From the NCBI GenBank assembly GCA_016214445.1, contig JACROM010000094.1, forward strand, positions 1 through 19,842: a stretch of DNA of 19,842 nt, written 5' to 3'. The notes under the pieces were generated by a model. It was not told the origin of the DNA, did not search any database, and saw only the letters and a program-made list of their open reading frames with translations. Source of the stretch: Microcaldota archaeon. Its GTDB lineage: Archaea; Micrarchaeota; Micrarchaeia; Norongarragalinales; Norongarragalinaceae. Of the stretch, positions 1 to 18,020 are shown in pieces. The first letter of the stretch is position 1. Every line of letters starts with the position of its first letter. The position numbers and the translations under genes are program-made.

Positions 1-2
1 AA

Positions 3-884
3 CGCCTGAAAGGCTACGTCAAGCAAAGGAACCTTCCCCACCTCATGTTCGCGGGCCCGGCTGGAATCGGCAAGACGACGGCGTCATTGGCGTTAGCGCA
101 CGAATTGTTTGGAGACGACATACGCTCGAGTTTTCTAGAGCTAAACAGTAGTGACGAGCGCGGAATTGACATAATTCGAGGAAAAGTTAAGGACTTCTCC
201 CGCACGCTCGCGTTGGCGGACGTGCCCTTCAAGATAATCTTCCTCGACGAGTCCGACGCCCTCACTCCGGACGCCCAGCAGGCTTTGCGCAGGACGATGG
301 AGCAGTACTCCAAGAACGTCCGCTTCATCCTTTCAGCGAACTATTCCTCCAGAATCATAGAACCAATTCAGAGCAGGTGCGCTGTTTTCCGTTTCTCGCC
401 CTTGAAGGACGAGGAGCTCGGGGAACTTGTTGGCAAGGTCGCAAAAGCGGAGGGCTTGGTTCTGGACGAAAAAGCTAAGGACGCTGTCGTGTTGGTTTCC
501 GAAGGCGACGCGCGCAAGGTCTTGAACGTCCTGCAGGGAGTGTCAGTGATGGGCTCCAAGGTGACTGAGGAGCAGGTTTTGAAGGTGAGCGCGCAGGCCC
601 GTCCCAAGGAAATAGCCGAAATGGTCGCTTTGGCCTTGAACGGCAAGTTCACAGAAGCAAGGAAGCAGCTGGACGACCTCATGCTCGCGTATGGTTTGAG
701 CGGTGAAGATGTGATGCGCCAGATGTACCGAGAAGTGGTTTCGCTTAGCATTTCCGACGAAACCAAGGTTTTTCTCGTTGACCGTTTGGGAGAATACTCC
801 TTCCGTTTGAGCGAAGGAGCTGACGAGCGCATCCAGCTGGAAGCCATGCTCGCGCAAATCATGCTTGCTGGGAAGAGGAAATGA
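3..884 (+). CDS. rfcS: Replication factor C small subunit, 5' end outside window
   Basis: This is the small subunit of the archaeal clamp loader, which opens PCNA and loads it on primed DNA using ATP, in complex with RFC large subunit. The frame is open from the first bases of the window (it reads RLKGYVKQRNLPHLMF before the first ATG at 45), so the true start lies upstream and about 294 codons are visible. Signatures seen are the P-loop GPAGIGKTT just after the LMFAG segment, the Walker B/RFC box FLDESDALT (usually DEAD; here DESD), the RRTMEQYSKNVRFILSANY box and the IEPIQSRC box with the arginine finger. No intein is present in the visible part. The stop is TGA at 882-884. The last residues (LAQIMLAGKRK) are echoed in the same frame just after the stop. 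The family call is very secure. Confidence 0.96.
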   Translation, partial: RLKGYVKQRNLPHLMFAGPAGIGKTTASLALAHELFGDDIRSSFLELNSSDERGIDIIRGKVKDFSRTLALADVPFKIIFLDESDALTPDAQQALRRTMEQYSKNVRFILSANYSSRIIEPIQSRCAVFRFSPLKDEELGELVGKVAKAEGLVLDEKAKDAVVLVSEGDARKVLNVLQGVSVMGSKVTEEQVLKVSAQARPKEIAEMVALALNGKFTEARKQLDDLMLAYGLSGEDVMRQMYREVVSLSISDETKVFLVDRLGEYSFRLSEGADERIQLEAMLAQIMLAGKRK

Positions 885-998
885 TTGTTCGGCGTAGAAG
901 GAAGGGGGATGCGTCCGGTTCGCGGGGGAAACCGCGAGCAGGCGCGAGTGGTTGCCTCCAAGAAGCTGGCGCAATTGATGCTTGCGGGAAAGAAAAAA
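849..998 (+). repeat. Duplicated 3' tail of the RFC small subunit gene
   Basis: The last 11 codons of rfcS (849-881, LAQIMLAGKRK) recur 117 bp downstream at 966-998 in the same reading frame as LAQLMLAGKKK; I count about 26 of 33 bases identical. The second copy lies beyond the TGA stop at 882-884, in the gap before the next gene. The frame stays open from 885 into the downstream ATPase. It looks like a decayed tail duplication or a former C-terminal extension cut off by a stop codon. Only the similarity itself is observed; the history is inferred. Confidence 0.6.
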
Positions 999-1022
999 AC
1001 GCGAGTCCTTCCCCAGAATAGG

Positions 1023-1030
1023 TTTATATA
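1023..1030 (+). promoter_or_regulatory. TATA box of the DUF234-type ATPase gene
   Basis: TTTATATA is centred about 26 bp upstream of the ATG at 1053, the usual archaeal distance to the transcription start, so the transcript is probably leaderless. This position argues that the gene starts at 1053 and not at the upstream in-frame codons from 885. A second AT-rich stretch (TTATATAAA, 1041-1049) is too close to the ATG to be the box for this start. Confidence 0.7.
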
Positions 1031-1052
1031 TTGTTTATGTTTATATAAATCC

Positions 1053-2444
1053 ATGGAAGAGAAAGCATTCGTGAACCGGCAGGAAGAACTGAAACAGCTA
1101 GTTTCCGCCCTTTCCCGCAAGGGCCCGGAGCTGATTATTTTATACGGCCGCAGGCGGGTTGGCAAAAGCCGTTTGCTGAGGGAGGTATGTAAAAAAGCCA
1201 AGGTCGATGTTTTCGTAATGCTGGAGGAGGCGGACTATAATACGAATTTAAGGAAAGTGTCCGAAGCGGTTGTCAAGCGTTTTGGTTTCCCGAGTTTTTC
1301 GCCCGCTTCGTTCAAAGACCTCTTCAGTTCCCTGCCGGACGGAACACTAATATTTCTCGACGAGTACTCTTACCTTCCCGGCTCAATAGGAGAATTCCAG
1401 GCAATTTGGGAAGACATCGTCAAACCTAAAGGAATCAAGCTTGTTTTGTCTGGTTCTTTGATCAGGGTAATGGAAGACCTGTCCTACTCTTTGTCAAGCC
1501 CGCTCTATGGCCGCGCAACTCAAATCATTAAACTAACGCCGCTCTCTTTGCAGCATGTCCTAGAATGGTACGGAAAAAACGCCAAAATAGAAAAAGTGCT
1601 GCCAACTTACTTTTGTGTTGGCGGAGTCCCAAGATACCTCGAAGTCATCGAGCGCCCTTCACTGGCTCAGGTCCAGCATGCTTTTCTCTCAAAGAACGGG
1701 CTTCTTTTGAGGGAAGGCAAACTGCTTTTGAAAGAGAGCTTTCCCACTTCACTGGTTTTTCCAAAGATACTTTTCACAGTATCCTGTGGTGTTTCTGAAG
1801 CAACTAAAATAGCGAATGCAGTTCAAATCAAGGCAAACGAGGTCAGCAAGTATCTGATGCTGCTTTCAGATTACGGGTTTGTTGAAAAAAGATACCCTTC
1901 GTTAGGCGGAGGCAAAAAAGACGTGCGTTTCTATACTGCCGACCGTTTCCTGTCGTTTTGGACGAAGTTTGTCTGGCCATATTATGATGAAATAGAGAAC
2001 AGTTCAGAAAATCAAGCAACAGCCAAGTTCAAGAAAAACTTCACTACTTTTGCCGGGCTTGAATTTGAGAAAACAATTATTGAGATTTTGAAGCAGCGCC
2101 CCCGCCTTATCCCCCTCTCTTCCAATAACGCTGGAAAACAATGGGGCAGGATACCCGGAGCAAGGGAGGGGGAGAACCAGTACGAAATAGATGTGTGCGC
2201 TACAGACGAAAAAAACAATAAAATCTTCTTTGCCGAGTGCAAGTGGAAGGAAAAAGTGAACGCGCAGGATGTCATCAAAAACTTGAACGAAAAAACTGCT
2301 TTCGTTGACTGGCGCAAAAACAAGAGGAGAGAAATATTAGCGGTGTTTGCGAAATCTTTTAAAAGCAAAATAACCGAATACGAAGGCAAAAAGGTCCTGT
2401 GCTTTGACTTGAATGATCTGGAGCAAACTTTGAAAAACAGCTAG
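1053..2444 (+). CDS. Archaeal ATPase with C-terminal DUF234/PD-(D/E)XK-like nuclease domain
   Basis: The product is 463 aa. Seen: an N-terminal FVNRQEELKQL motif typical of archaeal ATPases (ATPase_2 family), P-loop GRRRVGKS at residues 32-39, Walker B LIFLDE at 99-104 and the KLVLSGSLIRVM strand after it. The middle region is compatible with a winged-helix segment (KANEVSKYLMLLSDYGFVEK). The C-terminus has a restriction-nuclease-like core: D380 in YEIDV and E395/K397 in FAECKW. This is the architecture of ATPase_2 plus DUF234 proteins, which are common in archaea; their cellular role is not settled, and defence, mobile-element or DNA-handling functions are guesses. The ATG at 1053 is preferred because of the TATA box at 1023; the longer frame from 885 would add the duplicated rfcS tail. 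Confidence 0.88.
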   Translation: MEEKAFVNRQEELKQLVSALSRKGPELIILYGRRRVGKSRLLREVCKKAKVDVFVMLEEADYNTNLRKVSEAVVKRFGFPSFSPASFKDLFSSLPDGTLIFLDEYSYLPGSIGEFQAIWEDIVKPKGIKLVLSGSLIRVMEDLSYSLSSPLYGRATQIIKLTPLSLQHVLEWYGKNAKIEKVLPTYFCVGGVPRYLEVIERPSLAQVQHAFLSKNGLLLREGKLLLKESFPTSLVFPKILFTVSCGVSEATKIANAVQIKANEVSKYLMLLSDYGFVEKRYPSLGGGKKDVRFYTADRFLSFWTKFVWPYYDEIENSSENQATAKFKKNFTTFAGLEFEKTIIEILKQRPRLIPLSSNNAGKQWGRIPGAREGENQYEIDVCATDEKNNKIFFAECKWKEKVNAQDVIKNLNEKTAFVDWRKNKRREILAVFAKSFKSKITEYEGKKVLCFDLNDLEQTLKNS

Positions 2445-2470
2445 CGACAAAAAATTTGCGAGGGAAAACG

Positions 2471-2959
2471 ATGAAAATCAAGATTTTCGTAACCGGCGGG
2501 ACGTTCGACAAGGAGTACGACGAGATAGAGCAGCTGTTGGAGTTCAAGAAAACCCATCTGCCGCAGGTGCTGGAACAGGCCCGGTGCAAGCTGGAAATAA
2601 GCGTGGAAACGGTTTTCCTGAAGGACAGCCGCGACACAACAGACATCGACCGCGAAAAGATAGCAAAAGCCTGTGCGGAAGCGAAAGAGGACAAGATAGT
2701 CATAACGCACGGGACAGATACTGCCGACCAGACGGCCCGCGCCCTCAAGAAGAAAGTCAAGAACAAGACCATTGTCCTGACTGGAGCAATGGTTCCCTAC
2801 GCTTTCAACAGCTCGGACGGCTCGTTCAACCTCGGCTGCGCCTTGGCTTTCGTGCAAACCCTTCCGCCCGGAGTGTACGTGACGATGAACGGCTTCGCTT
2901 TCGACGCAGAAAACGTCAAAAAGAACCTCAAGACGGGCGTTTTTTCCGAGCTGAAGTGA
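2471..2959 (+). CDS. Single-domain asparaginase-like protein
   Basis: The product is 162 aa and corresponds to only the N-terminal domain of type I/II L-asparaginases (about 330 aa). Seen: FVTGGTFD with the nucleophile-type Thr at residue 11, a K-D-S-R-D stretch at 51-55 matching the substrate-binding Asp-Ser loop, THGTDT at 79-84 with the second catalytic Thr/Asp pair, and VLTGAM. The C-terminal domain that completes the active site in full-length enzymes is absent and the next gene is unrelated, so this is not a frameshifted asparaginase. Short asparaginase-domain proteins of this size are known in prokaryotes, but their substrate is unclear. ATG 2471 has GAGGG a few bases upstream; a TTG at 2456 is an in-frame alternative. 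It follows the ATPase gene by 26 nt and may share its transcript. Confidence 0.85.
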   Translation: MKIKIFVTGGTFDKEYDEIEQLLEFKKTHLPQVLEQARCKLEISVETVFLKDSRDTTDIDREKIAKACAEAKEDKIVITHGTDTADQTARALKKKVKNKTIVLTGAMVPYAFNSSDGSFNLGCALAFVQTLPPGVYVTMNGFAFDAENVKKNLKTGVFSELK

Positions 2960-2964
2960 AAAGC

Positions 2965-2977
2965 CTCCTTTTTTGTT
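2965..2977 (+). terminator. T-rich terminator after the asparaginase-like gene
   Basis: A pyrimidine-rich run with six consecutive T (2969-2974) follows the stop at 2959. Archaeal RNA polymerase terminates at such U tracts without a strong hairpin. It separates this unit from the cdc48 promoter at 3021. Confidence 0.4.
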
Positions 2978-3020
2978 CCCCGTAGGCTCAAGTGAATTTT
3001 CCGGGCTTTAAAGCGAGGGG

Positions 3021-3055
3021 TTTAATAAGTTTTTTCCAGAAATGATAGCGTGGTG
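3021..3055 (+). promoter_or_regulatory. cdc48 promoter and ribosome-binding site
   Basis: TTTAATAA at 3021-3028 is a TATA-like box, which predicts a start near 3050. GGTG at 3052-3055 lies 8 nt before the ATG at 3064 and can pair with the 3' end of archaeal 16S rRNA. The leader would be very short. Confidence 0.55.
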
Positions 3056-3063
3056 CTTACTGT

Positions 3064-6000
3064 ATGGAAGAGATTGAACTGAAAGTAGCGGAAGCGATGC
3101 AGATAGACTACGGCAAGCGTGTTGTAAGGCTGGATTCGAATGCGCGCAAAGTGCTCGCGCTTACAACCGGGGACGTGGTGGAGATAAACGGGAAGAAGAA
3201 AACCGCCGCGCTGGTTCTTCCTTCCCACCCGCAGGACGAAGGCATGAACATAATCCGCATGGACGGCATACTGCGCCAGAACACCAGCGTGGGCCTAGGA
3301 GACCGAGTAAAGATCAAGAAAGCAGAAATCAAGCCAGCGAAAAAAATAGTCATCGCCCCCAACCAGCCTTCACGCTACGCTCCAGGTTTCGACGCTTACG
3401 TCAAGAAGAACCTCATAGGCAAGCCGTTGAGCAAGGGCGACATCCTTTCCGTGAATGTTTTCGGCACCAGCTTCCCGTTCGTCGTAGCGCAGACCGTTCC
3501 TACAGGGTTGCTCGTCATCACCCCTGAAACCGAGGTCATACTCAAGGACGAGCCGCTGAAGGAAGTGGGCAAGATAGCAACGCTCTCGTACGAAGACATA
3601 GGCGGCCTCAAGGACGAAGTGCAGAAAATCCGCGAGATGGTCGAGCTGCCCATGAGGCACCCGGTCCTGTTTGAGCGGCTTGGCATAGAACCGCCCAAAG
3701 GGGTTCTCATCTACGGCCCGCCGGGAACAGGCAAGACGCTGTTGGCGAGGGCAGTAGCGAATGAAAGCGACGCTCACTTCATAACCATCAACGGCCCGGA
3801 GATAATCTCGAAATTCGTCGGCGAAGCTGAGGAGCGGTTAAGGCAGATATTCCAGGAAGCGGAAGACAACGCCCCCACCATAATGTTCATAGACGAGCTC
3901 GATGCCATAGCCCCAAAACGCGAGGAGGTCGTGGGCGAAGTCGAAAAACGGGTAGTCAGCCAGTTGTTGTGTGTTTCTCCCGACACTCCTATATATACAT
4001 CTGATGGCGTGGTGCCGATTAAACAGCTCTACGAAAGCGTCCAAGGGGAAAAATACGTCATGAACGGCGTAGAGTACGTTCACCCGCAAGGGCTGAAAGT
4101 TAACGCATTAGCTGAAAAAGAGATCAAGCATTCGCCTGTTTTGGCCATGAACAAGCTGTTCGTTCCGGATGCTTACGAAGTCGTGCTAGACAACGGGGCA
4201 AACTTGAAAACGTCGGCCATCCAGCGCTTTTGCACTATTTCCGAGGGTCGCCTGGAATGGGTTCCCGTGACCGAACTTAACGCGGGCGATTATGTGGCGG
4301 TGCCGACTGAAATCGGACTGGAAGAAAAACCAGTTGACCTGATGGGCCGCCTTTCTGGCTGTTACTCCTTCCAGCTTTCCGACAGGGGCGCGGCTGTTTT
4401 CGGCCGCCGCTACGTGAACCGGGCGGAATTCACGCACTTCAACACGCACTGTACTTTGAAGGAAGACGGGACCCTTCGTACGCGTTTGCTCAACTTTATC
4501 CGTGACAAAAAACAGTGCAGTGTTGCCGAGGTCTTTTCCGCGTTTGCCAAGAATGAAAACGAGCGCATCCACGTCCGCCGCCTGCTTAGGTCCCTTGAAT
4601 CCCTGCAGAGCGTCAGCATTCTACGGAATGGGCGAAAACTAGGTGTTGTCCGGGCCGCCCCATTCGCGGCGTTGTTGTGGGAAGACGTCAAAGGCGTTTC
4701 GGTGTTCAAGTATTCCCGGAACTACGTCAAGGACTCTTACTTCCTCAAGACTGTGCGCGAACTGACTCCCGAGCTCGCCGAGTTTGTGGGCTACGTCATG
4801 GCCGACGGAAGCATGGCCAAAACCCGCGTTAATTTCTCCGGCAAGCCCGAAGTGGTCCTGCGCGCCCAGGAAATTTCCGCCAAACTGTTCGGCAAAGAAG
4901 GCTGCCTCAAAAAAATCAACGACAAGTATTATAGGTTGGACATCGCCTGCCAAACGCTGCCGTTTCTGCTGAACGACCTGTTCGGTATCCCCATTGGCAA
5001 AAAATCCCACATTATCGCCCTCCCGCCGCTCCTGTTCACTGCCACAACTGCGTGCAAGAAAGCGTTCGTTAGGGCCTATTTCGACTGCGACGCTTCCCTG
5101 TCATCGAACCTCCGCGCTTTCTCCAGAAGCAGGCAAATGATGCAGGACTTGGGTGCTCTCCTGCTTTCGCTCGGTTTTCTCACGAGTTACTCCTTTGCAA
5201 ACGGCATGCACTACTGCAACGTGCTGGACGGAACCAAGGGCGCTTTGCGTTATGCCGAAACAATAGGCTCGGTCAGAAAAGACCGGCTGGCCAAGTTCCA
5301 TGAGCTTTTGGCTGGAAGAACTGTAAGCTCTTCGGTCCGGTTTGTCCCGAACATGCAAGAAGCGCTCAATGCGCTGCGCAGCGGCCTTTCGGGTCTGAAG
5401 GATAACGATTACCGCTACCTGACTGGAACCAGGGCGGCTGGCAAGGACAAGCTGAATTATTTCCTCGGCTTATACGCGGGGCAGAAAACCCGTTGGGTCG
5501 AGTGCCTTGACTCGCTGCTGCAAACCCAAGTGGCGTGGACGCGCATCCTGTCAATTAAAAAAATTCCCGGGATGACGATGTACGACTTGACAACTCAAAC
5601 AGGCAATTTCGTGGGCGGGAACGTCCCGACGCTTCTCCATAATACGCTCATGGACGGACTAAAGAGCAGGGGGCAAGTGGTGGTCATAGCTGCAAGTGTA
5701 ACTGGAGACACGCCGATTTTGGTCAGGAACGAAAAAGGGACCGGATTGGTTGCAATTGGGGATTTTGTCGACTCTTTCTACGCTCAAGGCGAAGCGGACG
5801 TAGAAAAACCTGTTTCTGGCGTTCATACTTTAGGTTTTTCTTCGCGTGCCGCAGACAACAATTTCGGTAATGTTCATTTTGACCGGGCAGAATTCAAAAA
5901 AGTTGGCGGCGTTTTCCGGCACAAAGTAAACGAAATCTACGAAATTAAATTTAACGGCGGAAAAATAAGGGCAACTGGAAACCACTCCGTGTTTGTCAGA

Positions 6001-9000
6001 ACCAAAAAAGGCGTTGAGTCAAAACCCGTGACCGAGCTGAAAGAAGGCGAGTATCTTGTTGATTTGCCATACAAAGTCAGGTCAACGAACGGCCCGCAGT
6101 TGCGCTGCGCGTCGTTTTCGTCAGTCTATCCTTCAACGCTTCCCGTTGCCGCGAAAATCCGAAGAGCTTATAATGAAGCGTTAACCAGGTCCGTTTCAGC
6201 TGCTGCCGACGCAGCCGGCACGCATGTCACCACAGCTTACGCGTGGCGCCGAGGAAGGTTGCCCAAGGCACTCCAAACTCCTCTTTCACGTTCTCTCCCC
6301 GAAGAGGTGAATCTTGCCCCTCCCCTGTTTCGTTTGCTTGGATATTACGCTGCGGAAGGCTACTCGCGGAAGGAACTTGATTTCTGTTTTGGAACCCATG
6401 AACCTGCCCTAATTTCAGACCTTCAGAATCTGATGGGCGAGTATTTCGGGATAGAGCCTTCAAAAGTCGCGGCCACAGGTTCTCGGACAAACATTGTTTA
6501 CTACTCAAAACTGCTCGCATCATTTTTCGCTCAACACTGCGGCAAAGGAGCGCACAACAAGCATGTGCCGCCTTTGCTTTTCGATATGCCGAAAGAGTTT
6601 TTCCTCGAATTTCTCAAGGGCTTCGCGGCCGGCGACGGTTATACGTCCCCTGAAGGTAAGATCGAAATCACATCCGTCAGCAGGCGGTTGATTCTGGAGC
6701 TGAACTGGCTGTGCCGAATGCACGGCATCAAGTCTGCGTTCTCTTCTTTCATCGTGAAGGAACGAAGTCTCGACGGGTATATGCTTCCGAAAACAACCGC
6801 GTTTCGTTTGCACATAGGCGCCCGCCAAAATCCCTTCCGGCTCCAGACAGTTAACCGCATGAAAATAAGCCGCGCGAAAATCAAGAGAATTACCAGGTTG
6901 CCGTTCGACGGCTATGTTTACGATCTGTGCGGTTGTGACAATGAAGCATTTTTTGGCGGTGAAGCTCCGATTTTGCTTCACAACACCAACCGTCCCAACA
7001 GCATAGACCCCGCGCTCAGAAGGCCGGGAAGGTTCGACCGCGAGATAGAGCTAGGGGTTCCGGACAAGAGGTCTCGCAAGGAAATACTCCAGATTCACAC
7101 GCGCGGCATGCCGCTCGCCAAGGACGTCTCACTGGACGAGCTTGCGTCAGTGACGCACGGCTTCGTTGGTGCGGATTTGCAGTCCCTGACTAAGGAAGCC
7201 GCGATGAAAGTGCTCCGCAGGGTTCTGCCCAAGATAAAGCTGCAGGACGCCGAAATCCCGCAAAACGTGCTGGACGAGCTGACTGTAACGCGCCACGATT
7301 TCCAGAACGCGCTACGCGAAATCCAACCGTCAGCGCTGAGGGAAGTTTTCGTCGAGATTCCCAACGTCCGGTGGAACCAAGTAGGCGGTTTGGACGAGGT
7401 AAAGCGTGAACTCAGGGAGGCGGTAGAGATGCCGCTCAAGAACCCGGGAGTTTTCAAGAGGCTCGGCATACGGCCAGTCCGGGGCATACTTCTGTTCGGC
7501 CCTCCGGGAACAGGCAAGACGCTGTTGGCGAAGGCTGTAGCAACTGAAAGCGAGTCCAACTTCATTTCCATAAAAGGGCCCGAACTCATAAGCAAGTGGG
7601 TCGGTGAATCGTTGGCATATGATGAAGAGGTCATCGTCCAAGTCGATGGAGCCACCCAACGCCGGAAAATCGGCGAGTTGGTGGACGAAAACCTGTCCGA
7701 GAACGCGGGACAACTTACGGCGCTCAAGCAACGCATGTTGGTTCAAACCCTTGACGAAGCCGGAAAAGCCCAGTGGGCGCCGGTAACGGATTACTTACGC
7801 CACGCGGCTCCAACACAACTCTACGAAGTTCACACCCGATCCGGCCGCCGCATCCAACTGACTGCGGACCACGGCCTTTTCGTGCTGGACGAAGGAATGA
7901 TAAAAACCATTCCCACCCAAAATCTGGTCCCGGGCGAATCGTTTGTTGCAATTCCAAACCGCGCCACAGAGACTGGCCAAGACGTGGAATTGGATTTGCT
8001 GGCGTTGCTTGGAAACGACCCGCATGTCACAGTTGGAAACGTTTCCGGAATGGTCCAAGACGCAATCAACCGTTTTGGACTAGCAAAAGTCAACCAAATA
8101 TTATTAGGATACTCGCGCCAGTTGGACGTGTTGCAGCGCGTAAAGGGCGACATGCGCATTCCCGTGCAGGCGTTCAAGCGCATGGCTGAATTACGTGCGG
8201 CATGCGATTCCTCTCAATTGACTGTAAGCACCAAAGCAAGCCGCGACCGCATTCCCGAACGCTTGAAATTCACTCCCGAACTGGCCTATTGGGTTGGCAT
8301 CTGGGTGGCGGAAGGCGATTTCAACGGCCGTGGAGCGCGGGTCCACAACCAGAACCCTGAAAACAGGCAACGGCTCAAAGCCTGTTTGGATTCGCTCGGT
8401 ATTTCCTACTCGGAAAACAAAAACGCCATCGTCACGTCAACTCTGTCCGCCAAAATCCTGCGCGCGTTGGGTTTGAACCATGGGGCAGACCAAAAACGCA
8501 TGCCCGCCATTGCGTTCAGCCTCCGTCGGGATGTTCTGGCCAGTTTGCTGTCCGGTTATTATAGTGGCGACGGCAGCGTTTACGGCAACGCGCACCGCAG
8601 CTACATCGAGGCCTGCACTGCCAGCGCAGGGTTGGCCAACGACCTCATGCGGTTGCTTCTGCCGTTCAGAATCGTCTCGATTCACTATGAACGGACCGAC
8701 AAGCGTTACGGCACCTTGATGCACAAAGTCCAGTTTTCGGGAGTCGAAAACTTCCAGAAATTCGCCACCATCGGCTTCAGCGACTCCAAGCGCAACGAAT
8801 GCGTTGCCGCCTACATCGTCTCCAAGAAATGGACGCGGACAGCCCAATTGCCAATTGACAAGACTCTGCGCGAACTGCTGCAAGACTATGGGTTTGAAGA
8901 ATGGGCCAAATCCAAGACTGTTGGCAGCCGCATCCTCAAGGAACTGTTCAGGTGGGCGCCTGCGGAAAAAACCGCGCCCTACCGCCAACTTTTGGAAAAC

Positions 9001-9669
9001 GACGTGCACTGGGACTTGGTTGTCGACGTGCGTAAAGTCGCATACGGCAAGCCCTACGTGTACGATTTGAGCGTCGATTCCACGCAGAGGTTCGTTGCCG
9101 GCTTTGGCGGGTTGTACGTCCACAACTCGGAAAAATATGTTCGTGAAACATTCAGGAAGGCGAGGCTGGCTGCGCCGTGCATAGTGTTCATAGACGAGCT
9201 CGACTCCGTTGCTTCCGCCCGCGGGACCGACCAGGGCTCCAAGGTGACCGAACGGGTGGTTGATTCGCTCCTTACTGAGATGGACGGCTTAAAGGACCTG
9301 AAGGACGTCCTGATAATAGGCGCCACCAACCGCATCGACCTCATAGACCCCGCGCTCCTGAGGCCCGGCAGGTTCGACAAGCTCATCGAGATACCGTACC
9401 CAGACCTCGCGACCAGGCTCGCGATATTCAAGGTGCACACCTCGAAGATGCCTTTGACGAAAGACGTGGACCTGAAGGAGCTCGCCAAGGTAACAGAAGA
9501 CTACTCAGGAGCAGACGTCGAGGGACTTTGCCGCGAGGCGGCAATGGTGGCCTTGCGCGAAAACATCGGCGCTGCCGAAGTAAACCACGACCACTTCATG
9601 AAGGCAACGAAGACGTTCTCGGTGCTCGTGTCCAAAAAGAAGGAAAGGGAAGACCTGACGTACGCGTGA
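3064..9669 (+). CDS. cdc48: Cdc48/VAT AAA+ ATPase precursor with three inteins
   Basis: This is the precursor of an archaeal Cdc48/p97 unfoldase, a homohexamer that pulls proteins apart and can feed the proteasome. The 2201 codons contain a 707-aa host protein in four pieces (residues 1-302, 861-877, 1308-1515, 2022-2201), a normal length for archaeal Cdc48. Seen: an N-terminal double-psi-barrel-like substrate domain (about 1-180), D1 P-loop GPPGTGKT at 218-225 and Walker B IMFIDE at 273-278, sensor-1 Asn and arginine fingers in [17 protein letters not shown] after residue 1308, D2 P-loop at 1479-1486, pore loop KWVGE just before residue 1516 and D2 Walker B IVFIDE at 2040-2045. The protein ends in DLTYA, close to the proteasome-docking hydrophobic-Tyr-X tail (p97 ends DLYG). 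Removing the three inteins restores the family sequence exactly, so the gene is probably functional. Confidence 0.97.
3970..5643 (+). mobile_element. Intein 1 of Cdc48 (558 aa, LAGLIDADG)
   Basis: The intein occupies residues 303-860. It starts with Cys303 ([11 protein letters not shown], block A) and ends in LLHN followed by Thr861. It splits QLL from TLMDGL in D1, between Walker B and sensor 1. The splicing blocks F and G are present ([12 protein letters not shown], then LLHN). Two homing-endonuclease motifs are seen: [13 protein letters not shown] with Asp581, and [13 protein letters not shown] with Asp676, the latter having Ala in place of Gly. The block B histidine is not found: the equivalent stretch reads SAIQRF with Gln387. 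Between the N-terminal splicing part and the endonuclease lies a segment (about residues 470-540) with charged helices resembling a winged helix. It splices itself out post-translationally, and the endonuclease would copy the element into intein-free alleles. Confidence 0.93.
5695..6984 (+). mobile_element. Intein 2 of Cdc48 (430 aa, LAGLIDADG)
   Basis: The intein occupies residues 878-1307. It starts with Ser878 ([10 protein letters not shown]) and ends in ILLHN followed by Thr1308. It cuts the D1 sensor-1 motif between IAA and TNRP. Block B is intact (RATGNHSVF, His974) and block F reads GYVYDLCG. The endonuclease motifs are [11 protein letters not shown] with Glu1098 and [13 protein letters not shown] with Asp1191, so it looks intact. 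Between the splicing and endonuclease parts a stretch [22 protein letters not shown] looks like a helix-turn-helix that may help DNA recognition. Only 17 host residues separate it from intein 1. Confidence 0.94.
7609..9126 (+). mobile_element. Intein 3 of Cdc48 (506 aa, LAGLIDADG)
   Basis: The intein occupies residues 1516-2021. It starts with Ser1516 ([10 protein letters not shown]) and ends in LYVHN followed by Ser2022. It interrupts the D2 pore loop between KWVGE and SEKYVRE. Block B is LTADHGLF with His1603, and block F is [16 protein letters not shown]. The endonuclease motifs are [14 protein letters not shown] with Glu1750 and [12 protein letters not shown] with Asp1836. All key splicing and nuclease residues look intact. 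The region around 1650-1700 ([20 protein letters not shown]) is helical and may be a DNA-binding insert. Confidence 0.94.
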
Positions 9670-9673
9670 TGAA

Positions 9674-10099
9674 ATGAACCTCCGGATAACCTTGAAGGCT
9701 TTGGGAATCTACGTCTCGGTAGCCATGGTCCTTTACGGCATGAGCGGTTACCTCGCGAAAACGTTTTCCTTCGATGCCTCGCTGCTCGCAGACGCGTGGA
9801 AGATGATAGCGTTGGCCGTAGGGCTCGCTTTCATAACCGGATTCGTCTACCCCCACCTCCGGGCGGTCCGCCACGGCGACCAGCTGATGGTCTTCGCGAA
9901 CCGCCAGCTTGTTGTCGGCGGCATCCAGCAGAACATGATGGACTTGCTTTTCGTGACTGCGCTCGAAGACGGCAAACGCGGCCAGAAGATAAAGTTCGCT
10001 TTCGGCAACGGCATGCAGGGCGAGGGCGTAATCACTTCCTATTCCGGCACCTTCACTCCGGGCATGCTCAAGGTAACTGAAACGGAACGTATGGAATGA
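9674..10099 (+). CDS. Small membrane protein of unknown family
   Basis: The product is 141 aa. I do not recognise the family. Two hydrophobic segments are seen (about residues 8-29 and 42-63), followed by a soluble, probably beta-rich C-terminal part (LRAVRHGDQLMVFANRQLVVGG onward). The ATG lies 4 nt after the cdc48 stop, so the two are very likely co-transcribed and perhaps translationally coupled. A membrane partner or adaptor of Cdc48 is conceivable, but that rests only on position. Confidence 0.75.
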   Translation: MNLRITLKALGIYVSVAMVLYGMSGYLAKTFSFDASLLADAWKMIALAVGLAFITGFVYPHLRAVRHGDQLMVFANRQLVVGGIQQNMMDLLFVTALEDGKRGQKIKFAFGNGMQGEGVITSYSGTFTPGMLKVTETERME

Positions 10100-10145
10100 C
10101 TTTTCATTATAGCGAGCCACGAAAGTTTCCCGACTGCTTTTCGCG

Positions 10146-10178
10146 TCTTATTCGGTCTTATTCGGCGAGAATTTAAAC
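10146..10178 (+). promoter_or_regulatory. Promoter of the M50-like protease with tandem 10-bp repeat
   Basis: ATTTAAAC (10171-10178) is a TATA-like box about 20 bp before the ATG at 10194 and 26 bp before a second in-frame ATG at 10200. Immediately upstream is a perfect tandem repeat, TCTTATTCGG twice (10146-10155 and 10156-10165). One repeat length is about one helical turn, and the position next to the box suits a regulator binding cooperatively on one DNA face. Confidence 0.5.
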
Positions 10179-10193
10179 CGGTTCCTCCAAACG

Positions 10194-10763
10194 ATGCTAA
10201 TGAAAAACTCCTTCGACTCCACTGAAATACTGCACATCGTCGTGTCGATAGTGACCATTTCGCTGGCGTTCTCGCTCTTCAAGGACGAAACATTTTCGCC
10301 TGAAGCCTTCTGGCTCGTTTTCCTCACAGTCGGCGTAGGCTTCGTGTTGCACGAACTCGCGCACAAATACGTGGCGCTCTCTTTCGGCGCCCACGCCTAC
10401 TACCGAGCATTCTTGTGGGGGCTTTTCCTCGCGTTGGTTTTGGCTTTCGCAACAAACGGCTCCCTTGTTTTCGCCGCTCCAGGCGCAGTGCTAATCCACG
10501 GCCGCATCACGCGCGAGCAGTACGGCAAGATTTCGCTCGCAGGCCCGCTCGCGAACTTAATCCTCGCCTTTGGCTTTCTTGTTTTGGCCTCGACAACAGG
10601 AATGCACGAGCTGGGTACAACAGGCGCCTACGTCAACGCTTTCTTGGGAATATTCAACATGCTTCCGTTCGGCCCGTTGGACGGCGCCCACGTCATGGCG
10701 TGGGACCGCAGAATATGGGGACTTGCCACTGCCGCGTTTGTTTTGCTGTTCTTTTTGTTTTGA
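10194..10763 (+). CDS. Site-2 protease-like M50 family membrane metalloprotease
   Basis: The product is 189 aa, an integral membrane zinc protease that would cleave substrates inside the membrane. Seen: the zinc motif HELAH at residues 53-57 within a hydrophobic segment, GPLANL at 117-122, and the third ligand motif N155-M-L-P158 with L162-D163-G164. At least four further hydrophobic segments are present. This is the minimal site-2 protease core without PDZ or CBS domains. Whether translation starts at the ATG at 10194 or at 10200 is open; the TATA box distance slightly favours 10200. Substrates cannot be deduced from the context. It has its own promoter. Confidence 0.9.
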   Translation: MLMKNSFDSTEILHIVVSIVTISLAFSLFKDETFSPEAFWLVFLTVGVGFVLHELAHKYVALSFGAHAYYRAFLWGLFLALVLAFATNGSLVFAAPGAVLIHGRITREQYGKISLAGPLANLILAFGFLVLASTTGMHELGTTGAYVNAFLGIFNMLPFGPLDGAHVMAWDRRIWGLATAAFVLLFFLF

Positions 10764-10764
10764 G

Positions 10765-10795
10765 TTGCGGAGAAAAAAATTATCCGCAAGGTTTT
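10765..10795 (+). repeat. Diverged copy of the vapBC-flanking repeat
   Basis: This stretch matches the reverse complement of the 33-bp repeats at 18048-18080 and 18883-18915 at about 27 of 31 positions, including AGAAAAAAATT and TCCGCAAGGTTT. It lies directly after the M50 gene, more than 7 kb from the other copies and in the opposite orientation relative to the window. Confidence 0.6.
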
Positions 10796-10796
10796 T
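10766..10796 (+). terminator. Hairpin plus T-tract after the M50 protease gene
   Basis: TGCGGA (10766-10771) and TCCGCA (10783-10788) form a perfect 6-bp stem around an A-rich 11-nt loop, followed by five T at 10792-10796. It starts 3 nt after the stop codon. The same stretch, read as a sequence, is the diverged third copy of the repeat that flanks the vapBC module. Confidence 0.5.
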
Positions 10797-10825
10797 GTGC
10801 CGCCAAACGGAAGGGAAAGACAAGG

Positions 10826-10834
10826 TATTTAAAA
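10826..10834 (+). promoter_or_regulatory. TATA box of the TumE-like/wHTH pair
   Basis: TATTTAAAA lies about 30 bp before the GTG start at 10863. GTGAT at 10855-10859 is a possible weak ribosome-binding site. Confidence 0.5.
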
Positions 10835-10862
10835 CGGTTAACATATAAGGTTAAGTGATGGC

Positions 10863-11144
10863 GTGGAGAAAAAGTTCACAATATGGCGGGACAACGCGAG
10901 AATCGACGTACGCTTCAGCGTGCAGAAAGGAAAAATCGAAGAATTTGCAATCAACGTATCGTACGAAAAGGACGGCGAAGTCATTGAGGTTTACCGGGCG
11001 GACACCGAACACGGGTTTCTGCACGAGCACATATTCGGAGAGAAAAGGAAGGTCCGCTTAGAGGAAAGCTTCGGAGATTACAACGCGGCATTTGAAGCAT
11101 TGTACGAGTACGCAAAAAAACACGCCGATGAATGGGTGAAATGA
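10863..11144 (+). CDS. TumE-like toxin candidate
   Basis: The product is 93 aa with a GTG start. A central pattern YRADTEHGFLHEHIFG (Asp...His-Gly...His-x-His) following a beta-rich N-terminal half resembles TumE/DUF7718-type toxin proteins, in which a D-x-x-H-G...H-x-H motif is typical. The gene directly abuts a winged-helix gene (stop 11142-11144, next ATG 11145), as in TumE-TumA pairs. The family is recognised from motif pattern and gene order only, so the toxin call is tentative. An ATG at 10858 is in another frame and gives a shorter unrelated ORF. Confidence 0.6.
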   Translation: MEKKFTIWRDNARIDVRFSVQKGKIEEFAINVSYEKDGEVIEVYRADTEHGFLHEHIFGEKRKVRLEESFGDYNAAFEALYEYAKKHADEWVK

Positions 11145-11501
11145 ATGAAAAACAAAATCGACCCGGCTGAATGGGTTTTCAGGCAGTGGGTTAAGGAGTC
11201 CCTGAAAAACCCGGAAAGCACGCCGGGCGAATTGAGCGTATTGACGCTTACGCCTGCAAAGCTGGCGAAAGTGTTCACGCCGGCGAGGGCGGAGCTATTG
11301 CAGGAAATAGAAAGGGACAGGTGCCGAAGCATCGGCGAACTGGCGGAAAAGCTCGGAAGGCCGCTCGAATCGGTTTCCCGTGACTTGAAGGTGTTGAAAT
11401 TCTACGGCCTGATAGAAATCGTAAAGGACGGCAAGGCGAGGACACCTAAGACTGCAAAACAACTGGTTTTGGTGCCATTGTGCTGGCAAACGCCGCACTA
11501 G
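11145..11501 (+). CDS. Winged-helix DNA-binding protein, probable antitoxin partner
   Basis: The product is 118 aa. Residues about 45-95 form a winged helix: LTPAKLAKVFTPARAELLQEI, then SIGELAEKLGRPLESVSRDLKVL as the helix-turn-helix and LIEIVKDG as the wing. This is like the HVO_A0114-type archaeal regulators that sit beside TumE toxins. Its start abuts the stop of the TumE-like gene without a gap. It would neutralise the toxin and may autoregulate the pair. Confidence 0.75.
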   Translation: MKNKIDPAEWVFRQWVKESLKNPESTPGELSVLTLTPAKLAKVFTPARAELLQEIERDRCRSIGELAEKLGRPLESVSRDLKVLKFYGLIEIVKDGKARTPKTAKQLVLVPLCWQTPH

Positions 11502-11509
11502 AAAAAAGG

Positions 11510-11546
11510 TTTTATAAGCACAACCGTGCACGAACTGTAAAAGGTG
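11510..11546 (+). promoter_or_regulatory. Promoter and RBS of the small zinc protein
   Basis: TTTTATAA (11510-11517) is a TATA-like box, and AGGTG (11542-11546) lies 5 nt before the GTG start at 11552. The box begins only 9 nt after the previous stop codon. Confidence 0.55.
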
Positions 11547-11551
11547 TTAAA

Positions 11552-11776
11552 GTGAAGAAGAGAAAACAGAACAAGTGCGAAAGATGCAAGAAGGAAGAGT
11601 ACTATTTCGAATGCTGCATGTTCTGCAAGCGCGTGACCTGCAAAAACTGCATAAAGAGCAGCGCGACCGCCTCGAAGACCGAGCGCCGCGTCATATGCAA
11701 GGACTGCTGGGGCGACAAGCGCAAGCAGAAGGTGTACCAGGTCCCTTCGAAGCCTAAGCCAATAGGGCTGCGTTGA
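11552..11776 (+). CDS. Small cysteine-rich zinc-binding protein
   Basis: The product is 74 aa with a GTG start, chosen over the longer frame from 11480 because of the promoter and AGGTG just upstream. Nine cysteines are arranged as CxxC (9,12), CC-x2-C (21,22,25), CxxC (30,33) and CxxC (49,52), enough to bind two zinc ions in a treble-clef or B-box-like fold. The N-terminus is basic (KKRKQNK) and the C-terminus is rich in Lys and Pro, which suits nucleic-acid or ribosome binding. I do not recognise the exact family, and the function is unknown. Confidence 0.75.
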   Translation: MKKRKQNKCERCKKEEYYFECCMFCKRVTCKNCIKSSATASKTERRVICKDCWGDKRKQKVYQVPSKPKPIGLR

Positions 11777-11792
11777 AAAACAACCGCCAAAG

Positions 11793-11816
11793 CTTAAAAC
11801 CACTACGCGCGTAGTG
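11793..11816 (+). promoter_or_regulatory. TATA box with 16-bp palindromic operator candidate
   Basis: CTTAAAA (11793-11799) is the TATA-like box for the hydrolase gene starting at 11828. One base after it comes CACTACGCGCGTAGTG (11801-11816), a perfect 16-bp palindrome lying between the box and the expected transcription start. A dimeric repressor bound there would block polymerase. Confidence 0.65.
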
Positions 11817-11827
11817 AAGACCGTACC

Positions 11828-12460
11828 ATGCTTAAAAACACGAGTTTCCTTAGCCCAATCGCGATGAAAAAAATCTCGGAAAACGTCTTTTGCGTCGAAG
11901 AGCCGCACGGCCGCATATGCTCGAAAGTCTACGTCCTCGAGGGCGAGGAAAGCGTGTGGCTCATAGACTCCGGTGACAAGGCGGAACGGGTTTTGAGCAA
12001 TCTGAAGAAACCGATTGAACGGGTTTTGCTGACACACGGACACTTCGACCACGTCCTCGGAGCGATTGAAGGGAAATGGGACAGCTGGCTCCGGCAAGAG
12101 GATTTGGAGCTGATAACGGAAATGAGCAGGGACTACGCTGAAGTTCCGAAGCCTGATTTCTTCAAGCCGTTCCCTCCGAAACTCGAATTCGAATCCTTCA
12201 AACTGGAACTTTTCCACACTCCTGGGCACACTCCCGGTAGCGTCTGTTTTTTGGACAGGAAAAGAGGAATATTGTTTTCAGGCGACACTTTGTTCGCGGG
12301 CGGCTTCCAAGGTAGGACGGATTTAATCGGTTCCGACCAAGGCCAGATGGACCGTTCGCTGGAAAAAATCGCCTCTTTGGAATTCGACCTGCTTTGCCCC
12401 GGCCATGGGAAGATAGAAAAACGGGCCCGCCTCGAAAATGAGCAGCAAGGAAAACGTTAA
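11828..12460 (+). CDS. Metallo-beta-lactamase-fold hydrolase (glyoxalase II-like)
   Basis: The product is 210 aa. The metal-binding motifs are complete: H70-G-H72-F-D74-H75, H134 in HTPGHTPGS, D153 in FSGDTLF and H193 in CPGHGK. This matches the MBL-fold hydrolases annotated as glyoxalase II-like, which cleave thioesters or similar substrates with two metal ions. The closing region beyond H193 is short, so the glyoxalase II C-terminal domain is absent and the true substrate is open. The ATG at 11828 fits leaderless initiation from the TATA box at 11793; M13 at 11864 is an alternative. The palindrome upstream suggests the gene is inducible. Confidence 0.9.
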   Translation: MLKNTSFLSPIAMKKISENVFCVEEPHGRICSKVYVLEGEESVWLIDSGDKAERVLSNLKKPIERVLLTHGHFDHVLGAIEGKWDSWLRQEDLELITEMSRDYAEVPKPDFFKPFPPKLEFESFKLELFHTPGHTPGSVCFLDRKRGILFSGDTLFAGGFQGRTDLIGSDQGQMDRSLEKIASLEFDLLCPGHGKIEKRARLENEQQGKR

Positions 12461-12489
12461 AAACAACCGTTACAACTAAATGATAGGTG
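12456..12489 (+). promoter_or_regulatory. Promoter and RBS of the RHH/RelE pair
   Basis: GTTAAAAAC (12456-12464) overlaps the end of the hydrolase gene and is a plausible TATA box. GGTG (12486-12489) lies 7 nt before the ATG at 12497. Confidence 0.45.
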
Positions 12490-12496
12490 TTTCACT

Positions 12497-12766
12497 ATGA
12501 AAACTACTATTGAAATAACGGGTTTTTGGGATGAGGTGCTGCAACGGGCAGTAGACGTGGGATTAGCCCGCTCGAAAACCGACGCGCTCAGGATAGGGGT
12601 AATAGAATTGAACCACCACTACAACCTTCTTGAGGATGATGAAGCTGAACTCGTAATAAGAAAAATTGAGCGCACTGAAGCCGACAACAGGGCCAAAGGG
12701 TTGAAGCCAAAAACTCTCGCGGATGTGCTCAAAGAGTACCCGGAATTGAAAAAAGTCAAGGGTTGA
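12497..12766 (+). CDS. Ribbon-helix-helix antitoxin candidate
   Basis: The product is 89 aa. The N-terminus reads as a short beta strand (TTIEITGFWDEVLQRAV) and two helices (GLARSKTDALRIGVIELNHHYNLL), typical of RHH antitoxins. The acidic helical tail (DDEAELVIRKIERTEADNRA) would wrap the toxin. It lies 4 nt before a RelE-like gene, the usual antitoxin-first order. It would repress its own promoter as a dimer and neutralise the toxin. Confidence 0.8.
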   Translation: MKTTIEITGFWDEVLQRAVDVGLARSKTDALRIGVIELNHHYNLLEDDEAELVIRKIERTEADNRAKGLKPKTLADVLKEYPELKKVKG

Positions 12767-12770
12767 CAAC

Positions 12771-13034
12771 ATGGAAGAATACGCGCTCGGGTTTGGACCC
12801 GGTTGGGACGAGCATTTCAAAAAATTCGACCTGAGCGTGAAGCAGCAAATCTGGAAAAAGATACTTCGCCTGCAACGTGCCTTAAAGCACAGGCACTTGA
12901 AACACGGCAACCCGTGCTTCGTTGAGAAAGCCGGCGGGTACAGAATCGCTTTTAGGGTTGATGAAGAGGGAAAAACCAAGAAAGTGGTTTTTGTCGGCGA
13001 CCACAAGCAGTACGAAAAATGGTACACGGGGTGA
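12771..13034 (+). CDS. RelE/ParE-family toxin
   Basis: The product is 87 aa. The closing pattern RHLKHGNPCFVEKAGGYRI followed by FVGDHKQYEKWY is characteristic of archaeal RelE-like toxins, where the basic residues and the terminal Tyr act in ribosome-dependent mRNA cleavage. The family could also include ParE-like gyrase inhibitors; the Tyr near the end favours RelE. The length is normal and no disruption is seen. Confidence 0.85.
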   Translation: MEEYALGFGPGWDEHFKKFDLSVKQQIWKKILRLQRALKHRHLKHGNPCFVEKAGGYRIAFRVDEEGKTKKVVFVGDHKQYEKWYTG

Positions 13035-13056
13035 CTTCCGCCCCAAAGCACCAACT

Positions 13057-13064
13057 TCTATAAA
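13057..13064 (+). promoter_or_regulatory. TATA box of the RFC large subunit gene
   Basis: TCTATAAA lies about 26 bp before the ATG at 13087, which supports a leaderless transcript and excludes the longer in-frame ORF that begins inside the relE-like gene at 12922. Confidence 0.65.
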
Positions 13065-13086
13065 CCGTCTCCCGCACAACAGAAAC

Positions 13087-14223
13087 ATGTCAGAACTCTG
13101 GACCGAGAAGTACGCCCCCCGTTCACTTAAGGAGGTTTACGGAAACTCGACGGCGATCGAGGTTATCAAGGCGTGGGCCCTTGACTGGAAGCGGGGAAAG
13201 AAAGGAAAACCTCTATTGCTGAACGGCCCGCCCGGAATCGGAAAAACCGCCTGCGCGCGGGCGCTTGCAGAGGAGATGGGCTGGGAGATTCTGGAAACGA
13301 ACGCTTCCGACCTTAGGGACTCCGCAAACGTGAAGAAACTAGTTGGAGCGGCAGCCTCGACAGGAACTCTGTTCGGAGGACTTAGGTTGGTGTTGGTGGA
13401 CGAAGTGGACTCCGCTCTTGACAGGGGGGAAGTGCCTGCGCTTAGCAGGGTGGTCGAAGAAGCAGCACAGCCCGTAATACTCACCGCTAACGACGCGTGG
13501 AACCCGAAGCTTGCAGCATTGAGGACATTGTGCGAAAGGATCGACTTCAAGAGGCTCGGAAAAGTAGACGTGAGGAGGAAGCTGGCCGACGTCGCGGAGC
13601 GGGAGGGGACGGTTTTCGAGGAGGGCGTTGTTGAAAACTGCGGCGGCGACATGAGGGGAGCGCTCATAGACATGCAGGCAGGCGGGGCGAGCGAGCGCGA
13701 AAGGGAGGAGAACGTTTTCGAGGGAATGAAGAAGGTCTTCAAGGGCAGCCTCGAAGAAGCCTTAGAAGCGCAGGACGCGAGCGGCGTGGACCTCGACCTG
13801 TTCATACGATGGGTGGAGGAAAACATACCGAACGAGTACGAAAAAGAGGACGACATAGCCAAAGCGTTCGACTGGCTTTCCAAGTCTTCGGTTTTCTCAG
13901 CTAGGATATTCAGAAGGCAGAACTACAAGCTCCAGAAGTTCGAAAGAGCCTTGGCGTTGGGCGGCGTGGCGTCAAGCAAAGAAACCCAGTACAGGAAGTT
14001 CACCGCTTACCAGTTTCCCGGATACATAAGGAGGATGGCGCAGAGCAGGCAGAAACGAGCATTGGCCAAAAGCGCATGGTCCAAGGCTTCAGCGAAGCTT
14101 CATTGTTCCTCCAAGAAAGCAAAAGAAGCGGAGTGGGCCTACGCTCCATACGCTGGTTTTTTCGGGTGGACGGAAGAAGAAACAGGGGTCGCGCCGAAGC
14201 AGCCAGTCAAAAAGAAGGTTTAG
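13087..14223 (+). CDS. rfcL: Replication factor C large subunit
   Basis: The product is 378 aa, the large subunit of the clamp loader. Seen: the N-terminal LWTEKYAPRSLKEVYGN, P-loop GPPGIGKT at 47-54, TNASDLRD at 71-78, Walker B LVLVDEVD at 101-108 and LTANDAWNPK. In the C-terminal collar region the family pattern (A..FDWLSKSSVFSARIFRRQNY) is seen. The protein ends with WTEEETGVAPKQPVKKKV and lacks an obvious QxxLxxFF PCNA-binding tail; many archaeal large subunits are 400-500 aa with such a motif. The start is chosen by promoter distance. It is transcribed alone, 12 kb from rfcS. Confidence 0.95.
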   Translation: MSELWTEKYAPRSLKEVYGNSTAIEVIKAWALDWKRGKKGKPLLLNGPPGIGKTACARALAEEMGWEILETNASDLRDSANVKKLVGAAASTGTLFGGLRLVLVDEVDSALDRGEVPALSRVVEEAAQPVILTANDAWNPKLAALRTLCERIDFKRLGKVDVRRKLADVAEREGTVFEEGVVENCGGDMRGALIDMQAGGASEREREENVFEGMKKVFKGSLEEALEAQDASGVDLDLFIRWVEENIPNEYEKEDDIAKAFDWLSKSSVFSARIFRRQNYKLQKFERALALGGVASSKETQYRKFTAYQFPGYIRRMAQSRQKRALAKSAWSKASAKLHCSSKKAKEAEWAYAPYAGFFGWTEEETGVAPKQPVKKKV

Positions 14224-14246
14224 CGCTTCCAGGGGGGGCGCCTAGT

Positions 14247-14273
14247 CTTCAAATTTCGCCGGAATAATTGAAG
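14247..14273. terminator. Inverted repeat between converging rfcL and racemase genes
   Basis: CTTCAA (14247-14252) and TTGAAG (14268-14273) form a 6-bp inverted repeat in the 93-bp gap between two converging genes. It could serve as a two-way terminator, though the stem is short. Confidence 0.3.
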
Positions 14274-14316
14274 CGGGAGAAAACAAAGCGAAAACGCTGG
14301 TTTCCTGAAAAACGGT

Positions 14317-15122: not shown

Positions 15123-15237
15123 ATGCTCACCAAATTCTTAAAAACAAAATGCCTGCATGCCATAAGGCGCCCAGCCATGTTTTGCACCGACGCGGTTTTT
15201 GGATGCAGTCACCCGCTCCAAGATACTGCAAAGTCGC

Positions 15238-15951: not shown

Positions 15952-15973
15952 GGAAGTGTTTTCTGCACCGTGG

Positions 15974-15983
15974 TTTATAATAT
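15974..15983 (-). promoter_or_regulatory. TATA box of the membrane-anchored protein gene
   Basis: On the - strand ATATTATAAA lies about 27 bp before the ATG at 15951, as expected for a leaderless transcript separate from the upstream pilin-like operon. Confidence 0.55.
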
Positions 15984-16060
15984 CGCCATTCCCGCCTTCG
16001 GGGTTTTGGCACAACAGCCTTTAAGCTGCGCAGTCTGCCCCAAAAGCGTTTGCCTTGTCC

Positions 16061-16072
16061 CCCCTCTAGGGG
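16061..16072 (-). terminator. Hairpin after the pilin-like operon
   Basis: CCCCTCTAGGGG is a perfect inverted repeat located 16-27 bp beyond the stop of the last operon gene (16088). No T-tract follows directly, so it may stabilise the mRNA end more than terminate transcription. Confidence 0.35.
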
Positions 16073-16087
16073 AATACGCGGGCGTGG

Positions 16088-17844: not shown

Positions 17845-18020
17845 TTGATTTTCTCGATCTCCTTGAACAATTCGGCTGATTCTTTTACGAGAACGCTCTT
17901 GCCTTTCGCGGCAGTTTCCTGCAGTTGGCTAACCAAGAGCAAAGCCAACGCTACCATGGCCGCTATCACTATGAGCATTTCAGCCGAGACCTGCCCGTCC
18001 TCTTCGCTCCAAAAACCCAT
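17841..18020 (-). CDS. Short class III signal peptide pilin (59 aa)
   Basis: The product is only 59 aa and easily missed by length cut-offs. EEDG|QVSAEMLIVIAAMVALALLLV shows a class III prepilin site after Gly9, Glu14 at +5 and a 20-residue hydrophobic helix, then a short amphipathic helical tail ending EKIK. The residues before the site are acidic (EED) where a basic residue is usual, which is odd. Such headless pilins resemble the small class III signal peptide proteins (DUF361 type) of archaea, some of which form thin filaments. The first gene of the operon has a TATA box about 28 bp upstream. Confidence 0.85.
   Translation of the reverse strand: MGFWSEEDGQVSAEMLIVIAAMVALALLLVSQLQETAAKGKSVLVKESAELFKEIEKIK

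Follow-up and report, generated by a model that had tools for sequence, protein, structure and literature searches.

Three inteins in one archaeal cdc48 gene, and an intein family at equivalent sites of CDC48 and FtsH

Introduction

How does the gene for Cdc48, an essential protein-unfolding motor, come to encode more intein than Cdc48? The locus that raises this question lies in a 19,842-nucleotide (nt) stretch of DNA from a Microcaldota archaeon (assembly GCA_016214445.1, contig JACROM010000094.1, positions 1 to 19,842 of the forward strand), the whole of which we call the window; in it, one cdc48 frame holds three inteins, named a, b, and c in their order along the gene. Would these inserts splice? 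Did one intein enter and multiply, or did three arrive separately, and if so, from where?

How inteins colonize new sites has long been asked. Allelic inteins predominate, and moves to ectopic sites are considered very rare for want of flanking homology (PMC1635734). Inteins in genes of this kind, and genes with several inteins, are already known. What the present analysis adds is a family of inteins with a variant block B and a likely spread of inteins among paralogous sites. The absence of the block B His from intein a, the family to which intein b belongs with its paralogous sites, and the intein richness of the genome go beyond an earlier, sequence-only reading of the stretch, which had placed the three inteins in cdc48 with the correct coordinates, lengths, and junctions.

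A cdc48 frame with three inteins

Positions 3064 to 9669 form a single open frame without interruption. Its parts are as follows (aa, amino acids; a slash within a motif marks the splice junction):

3064..9669, plus strand: cdc48 precursor open reading frame (ORF), 2201 aa, stop included in the span; TIGR01243, 1020.9 bits
3064..3969, plus strand: CDC48 extein 1, aa 1-302, N domains and most of AAA D1
3796..3855, plus strand: empty D1 site equivalent to the intein c site (FVGE/AEER, junction 3825/3826)
3970..5643, plus strand: intein a, 558 aa, precursor aa 303-860, extein site 302 (SQLL/TLMDG), Cys first, HN/T last
4213..4224, plus strand: block B position of intein a, Ser82-Ala-Ile-Gln85 in place of Thr-x-x-His
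4804..5091, plus strand: LAGLIDADG core of intein a, acids Asp279 and Asp374
5644..5694, plus strand: CDC48 extein 2, 17 aa, between inteins a and b
5695..6984, plus strand: intein b, 430 aa, precursor aa 878-1307, site 319 (VIAA/TNRPN, sensor-1 of D1), Ser first, HN/T last
6985..7608, plus strand: CDC48 extein 3, remainder of D1 and beginning of D2
7609..9126, plus strand: intein c, 506 aa, precursor aa 1516-2021, site 527 (WVGE/SEKY), presumably behind the D2 pore loop, Ser first, HN/S last
9127..9669, plus strand: CDC48 extein 4, remainder of D2, with the stop
9295..9354, plus strand: empty D2 site equivalent to the intein b site (IIGA/TNRID, junction 9324/9325), the aligned equivalent of site 319

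The three inteins total 1494 aa against 707 aa of host, and their in-frame removal restores the host in exact register, as had been claimed. The extein belongs to the CDC48 family of AAA ATPases (TIGR01243 cut-off, 802.65 bits; PF02359, PF02933, and PF00004 present). Each intein begins with Cys or Ser (Cys, Ser, and Ser for a, b, and c), ends in His-Asn, and is followed by Thr, Thr, or Ser at +1. The endonuclease motifs noted in the earlier reading are borne out: each intein taken alone matches PF14528 above the cut-off (intein a at 1.1e-6) and has the two LAGLIDADG (DOD) helices with a catalytic acid in each, namely Glu221 and Asp314 in intein b and Glu235 and Asp321 in intein c. To our knowledge, class 3 inteins lack an N-terminal Cys, Ser, or Thr nucleophile; all three inteins fall outside that class, their first residue being Cys or Ser.

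The splicing domains are less uniform. Inteins b and c have the canonical class 1 block B (Thr94-x-x-His97 and Thr85-x-x-His88, respectively) and, taken alone, match PF14890 above the cut-off (51.5 and 64.7 bits). Intein a lacks that block B and is thus noncanonical, a block-B-His-less intein; because on its own it matches PF14528 only, its splicing domain is divergent, as judged from profile matches. Across the whole frame, three stretches each of PF14890 and TIGR01445 are found, which may be pieces of inteins b and c, since intein a alone has no PF14890 match. That the inserts are not chance features is plain from aligned homologues and relatives, in which the same sites are empty or hold homologous inteins.

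Inteins are excised by an N-S or N-O acyl shift, transfer to the +1 residue, and Asn cyclization aided by the penultimate His. In the window's precursor, the acyl shift would occur at Cys1 or Ser1 of each HINT domain, transfer would be to Thr, Thr, or Ser in inteins a, b, and c, and Asn cyclization, with the penultimate His assisting, would follow as the flanks are joined, leaving 707-aa CDC48 and three free inteins. The LAGLIDADG endonucleases, with both acids intact, would cut intein-free alleles, upon which the intein would be copied in. We hold it to be very probable that the gene encodes a 2201-aa CDC48 precursor with three independent homing inteins that resolves in this way.

Three sites, three histories

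We compared the gene with the best 120 of 1221 matching CDC48 homologues within the length range, a selection in which counts are not frequencies. Insertions with a junction score below 5.9, which are alignment slips and non-intein inserts (e.g., in P0006, P0046, P0047, P0090, P0103, P0115, and P0117), were excluded from site counts. Clean inteins occur at extein sites 221, 248, 254, 302, 319, 521, 527, and 593. Sites 248/521, 254/527, and 319/593 are aligned equivalents in D1 and D2, such that all three D2 sites found among the 120 are images of D1 sites. The closest parallels to the window gene are P0001 (sites 302 and 527), P0002 (319 and 527), and P0005 (248, 254, 302, and 593), which share its extein positions and junctions and carry homologous inteins. 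The best same-site identities to other records are 60% for intein a, 61% for intein b (P0159), and 56% for intein c.

How unusual is such a gene? At least three clean inteins are found in 4 of the 120 homologues listed (four in P0005; three each in P0016, P0017, and P0018), and the window gene alone among them has both 302 and 319 filled. The earlier suggestion that a triple insertion in Cdc48 is unusual therefore stands in the sense of uncommon, but the arrangement is not unique. Multi-intein genes are known: Haloquadratum walsbyi polB likewise carries three inteins with homing endonucleases in one gene, and haloarchaeal MCM has intein sites in close proximity, as 302 and 319 are, although these are other host genes in another lineage (PMC10643990). 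Table 1 of that survey covers two DPANN genomes and gives no multi-intein gene for them.

Across 29 genomes of the order, sites 302 and 319 are filled in the window genome alone. Site 527 is filled in the window genome and in G009, G025, and G016 and empty in 24 (in one of these, G010, with Ala at +1); in G028, the frame stops at the contig end. The window's own empty D1 equivalent of site 527 also has Ala at +1, a residue unable to act as the +1 nucleophile. Two side observations concern CDC48s of relatives: one (L089, G047:C29) has inteins at site 254 and at an additional site, 271 (QAP/CITGDT...VHN/CILFFDE), just ahead of Walker B, and three others (L017, L029, and L048) have an insert of 211-232 aa at extein positions 363-374 without intein junctions.

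A wider sample of 301 genomes of the phylum was searched with each intein. Intein a (E <= 1e-20) has a full-length match in the window genome only, and four more genomes match it partly, in or around the endonuclease. Intein b is matched over residues 1-430 in the window genome and, likewise at CDC48 site 319, in G077 (55%) and G232 (44%), three genomes in all; in G048, residues 6-404 are matched at 30% in a different frame with different junctions, and three more genomes match the endonuclease part. Intein c (E <= 1e-30) has matches in 23 genomes, and the 12 loci mapped comprise the window, G009, G016, and G025 at site 527, plus eight loci in other CDC48-like frames, at site 254. A precursor scan of genome contigs gave two named loci, both from Candidatus Micrarchaeota, the nearest named source; among viral contigs, searched with the full precursor in a weak scan based on patterns from six short stretches, no relative was found.

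Within the gene, inteins a, b, and c are only 23.5-28.9% identical to one another. A FastTree tree was built from 178 inteins, 165 from CDC48s and 13 others of the window genome, including half-inteins from P0085 and P0116, in each of which the aligner split one intein. Site 302 inteins form one clade (11/11, support 0.965), as do those of sites 319 and 593 together (20/20, support 1.0); site 527 inteins fall mainly in one clade (81/88, 0.974) with site 254 inteins interleaved. The fewest changes between 254 and 527 number four, also after branches below 0.95 are collapsed. Because each of the window's inteins falls in its own site clade, the tree supports separate acquisitions, each intein grouping with CDC48 inteins of the same or an equivalent site elsewhere; the earlier reading had suggested as much from differences among the three. 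We posit that the inteins would have come from residents of such sites. Equivalent D1 and D2 sites also appear to have shared inteins over evolution, since 254 and 527 interleave, 319 and 593 make one clade, and the sites are aligned equivalents.

Does intein a splice without the block B His?

Three considerations weigh against a precursor with three working homing inteins. First, sites 302 and 319 lie only 51 nt apart in the intein-free gene. In Haloferax, adjacent active endonucleases impair each other's homing (PMC10643990), and because such close neighbors home poorly there, the pair could, provided that both of its endonucleases are active, by analogy amount to a partial dead end for homing. 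Second, the assembly is fragmented, with 140 contigs and 71.8% completeness, and a mixture of strains is conceivable. Third, the splicing of intein a could be slow or conditional, because the block B Thr and His are absent and PF14890 misses it.

The block B change is not peculiar to the window: Thr-x-x-His is absent from all 11 aligned site 302 inteins (the window's included), with Ser at the Thr position in 11/11 and Gln (9/11) or Thr (2/11) at the His position, and thus the variant is family-wide. At the same position, the 27 site 248 inteins have S..Q in 16, S..H in 9, and S..E in 2. A good predicted model of intein a matches HINT structures over residues 1-558 and points to a whole splicing and endonuclease fold; the TliVMA intein (7qss and 7qsu) and PI-PkoII (2cw7), from host proteins other than CDC48, are 19-28% identical to it over aligned residues.

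Could one or more of the inserts be splicing dead or conditional, with CDC48 activity regulated or lost? Intein a would be the likeliest such insert given that it lacks the block B His, a residue that is essential in many inteins but only important in others (PMC6333167). We consider this unlikely, since the site 302 family keeps the block B Ser, Cys1, Asp539, His557, and Asn558 in 11/11, as a working variant would, and since natural inteins without the block B His exist, namely the Tko CDC21-1 group, which like intein a has Leu at -1 (PMC6333167). Intein a differs from that group in sitting in CDC48 and in having its own Ser-x-x-Gln/Thr. In a DnaB intein, bulky -1 residues are able to compensate (PMC6333167). 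Intein a would have to activate its N-terminal junction without the block B His, perhaps helped by Ser82, Gln85, and the bulky Leu at -1.

As a separate observation, the inteins of P0121-P0126, mostly at a P-loop junction GxGK/C, resemble intein a (25-37% identity over 31-80% of it). Their host proteins have SRP54-type Pfam domains.

One intein family in CDC48 D1, CDC48 D2, and FtsH

If intein b did not arise within this gene, where else does its family live? Among the best 120 of 651 matches to intein b are 108 proteins new relative to the CDC48 set, one of which, the window's own (P0186), was excluded. By flanks and motifs (nine by hand), the hosts of the remaining 107 are FtsH in 80, CDC48 D1 in 18, and CDC48 D2 in 9; pooled with the earlier CDC48 set, the matches listed give 30 D1, 17 D2, and 80 FtsH inteins. 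All 107 aligned inteins end in Asn followed by T-N or S-N, nearly always at A/TN preceded by A, G, or S; P0181 has GT/TN, and P0180 starts six residues ahead of its intein. In CDC48 D1, CDC48 D2, and FtsH alike, bacterial FtsH included, the family sits at one and the same sensor-1 codon boundary; its named sources include Patescibacteria, Peregrinibacteria, and Thermoflexus.

In a FastTree tree of this family, the D2 inteins form one clade (17/17, 0.936), and 79 of the 80 FtsH inteins form one group with two D1 inteins nested inside. A quick IQ-TREE tree of 74 rows, in which 24 of the 80 FtsH inteins were included, likewise places 23 FtsH, 17 D2, and 2 D1 inteins together with a Shimodaira-Hasegawa-like approximate likelihood ratio test (SH-aLRT) value of 99. 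The FtsH intein of P0160, on a long branch, stands outside the others, near the root. Mean intein identities are 51.6% for D1-D1, 50.7% for D1-D2, 48.1% for D1-FtsH, and 54.4% for D2-FtsH, with 24-25% to four outgroup inteins.

Might the family simply predate the AAA duplications and have been inherited at all three places? In favor of such descent, the sites in D1 and D2 align as equivalents, and the two host domains share 50% identity, about as much as the inteins do. Nonetheless, D1 inteins are about as close to D2 inteins as to one another, and D2 and FtsH inteins are closer still, though D1 exteins downstream of the site are 61-82% identical to the window's (11 compared); the quick tree unites the inteins of D2 and FtsH, along with two from D1; and the distribution is patchy, with a full-length match of at least 44% identity in 3 of the 301 phylum genomes. 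On these identities, exteins, and patchiness, we judge vertical descent very unlikely.

Rare ectopic homing, from one AAA site to a paralogous one at conserved codons, fits the pattern instead. Here, paralogy supplies the flanking homology: the target motif is common to CDC48 D1, D2, and FtsH, with one intein family in all three, and ectopic homing is conceivable because the paralogous sites provide that homology. On balance, we favor the view that the intein b lineage moved by ectopic homing among CDC48 D1, CDC48 D2, and FtsH across archaea and bacteria, candidate phyla included, that the intein c lineage moved repeatedly between the D1 and D2 pore-loop sites, and that AAA modules served as stepping stones. 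The intein b family would then be a natural case for studying how inteins spread to new genes. In the literature on CDC48, DPANN/Micrarchaeota, and FtsH inteins and on paralogous or ectopic movement, subscription journals lying outside the search, we found no report of this pattern.

In which direction did the family move? Approximately unbiased (AU) tests on 60 of the 74 rows, with the outgroup, P0160, and near-copies left out, kept the one-clade constraint for all D1 (p 0.272) and for all FtsH (p 0.362). Neither is rejected, so the tests favor no direction; a move back from FtsH to CDC48 D1, as the position of P0192 and P0217 inside FtsH might suggest, is not significant. Nor do the D1 and D2 targets of the window gene match specially in DNA. 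Sites 319 and 593 agree at 20/30 nt centered on the junction, a level that 57 of 220 ten-codon stretches reach or exceed, and at 24/30 over the 30 nt downstream, a level reached or exceeded by 23 of 220; the junction-centered agreement is no better than much of D1/D2.

Chimera or duplication?

A fragmented and incomplete assembly leaves some room for a chimera of intein-bearing alleles from different strains. We regard this as highly improbable: every junction is exact and in frame, composition is level across cdc48 (GC about 0.49-0.58), and multi-intein CDC48s recur in other records. It is barely credible that a single intein invaded the gene and then multiplied within it to fill the other sites, for although all three have LAGLIDADG domains and intein junctions and equivalent D1/D2 sites do share families, the three sites are not mutually equivalent, each intein sits in its own site clade, and the three are 23.5-28.9% identical to one another but 56-61% identical to their closest same-site counterparts in other records, identities and trees that largely refute such copying.

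Inteins elsewhere in the genome and other observations

The genome of the window (G000; 1,293,712 bases) has at least 17 inteins in 15 genes, and profiles miss divergent ones. The hosts are cdc48 (three inteins), smc, rtcB, glmS, hel308, EF-2, a beta-CASP nuclease, PEP synthase, rpoB, rpoA, IMP dehydrogenase, MCM, metK, DP2, and a secretion ATPase; outside cdc48, this makes at least 14 inteins in 14 genes (loci L049-L063 minus L062). Those of IMP dehydrogenase (139 aa) and the secretion ATPase (177 aa) are mini-inteins. The rpoA intein, split between the ends of contigs C44 and C43, is counted once, and the DP2 intein is counted without a resolved C-terminal junction. TIGR01443 alone, which in cdc48 detects only the C terminus of intein c, gives 12 matches, tied with G020 as the top of the 301 phylum genomes. 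The total nearly equals that of Methanococcus jannaschii, with 19 inteins (PMC1635734).

Two loci deserve a separate remark. RNA polymerase A' (L056, 10085-13489; L058, 1-1539) continues into the first part of A'' and an intein with the junction GEPGTQM/S; because contig C43 opens with the opposite end of such an intein, a fusion of A' and A'' is possible. On another contig (L062, G000:C69, 7740-16707, minus strand), the rRNA operon is intron rich in appearance, with LAGLIDADG ORFs inside and a group I intron (RF00028, E 6.6e-16, 12770-12996) adjoining 16S pieces. Group I introns in archaea have already been published (PMC6125680).

Elsewhere in the window, small adjacent ORF pairs at 12497-13034 and 18071-18759 give the impression of toxin-antitoxin pairs by arrangement; 18081-18481 has no NCBIfam match. 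An asparaginase-like ORF of 167 aa (2456-2959) matches the family profile in its N-terminal part only. An aspartate/glutamate racemase (14317-15122, minus strand) is apparently split in two ORFs, with 14637-15122 matching the family's beginning and 14317-14574 resembling the remainder by eye.

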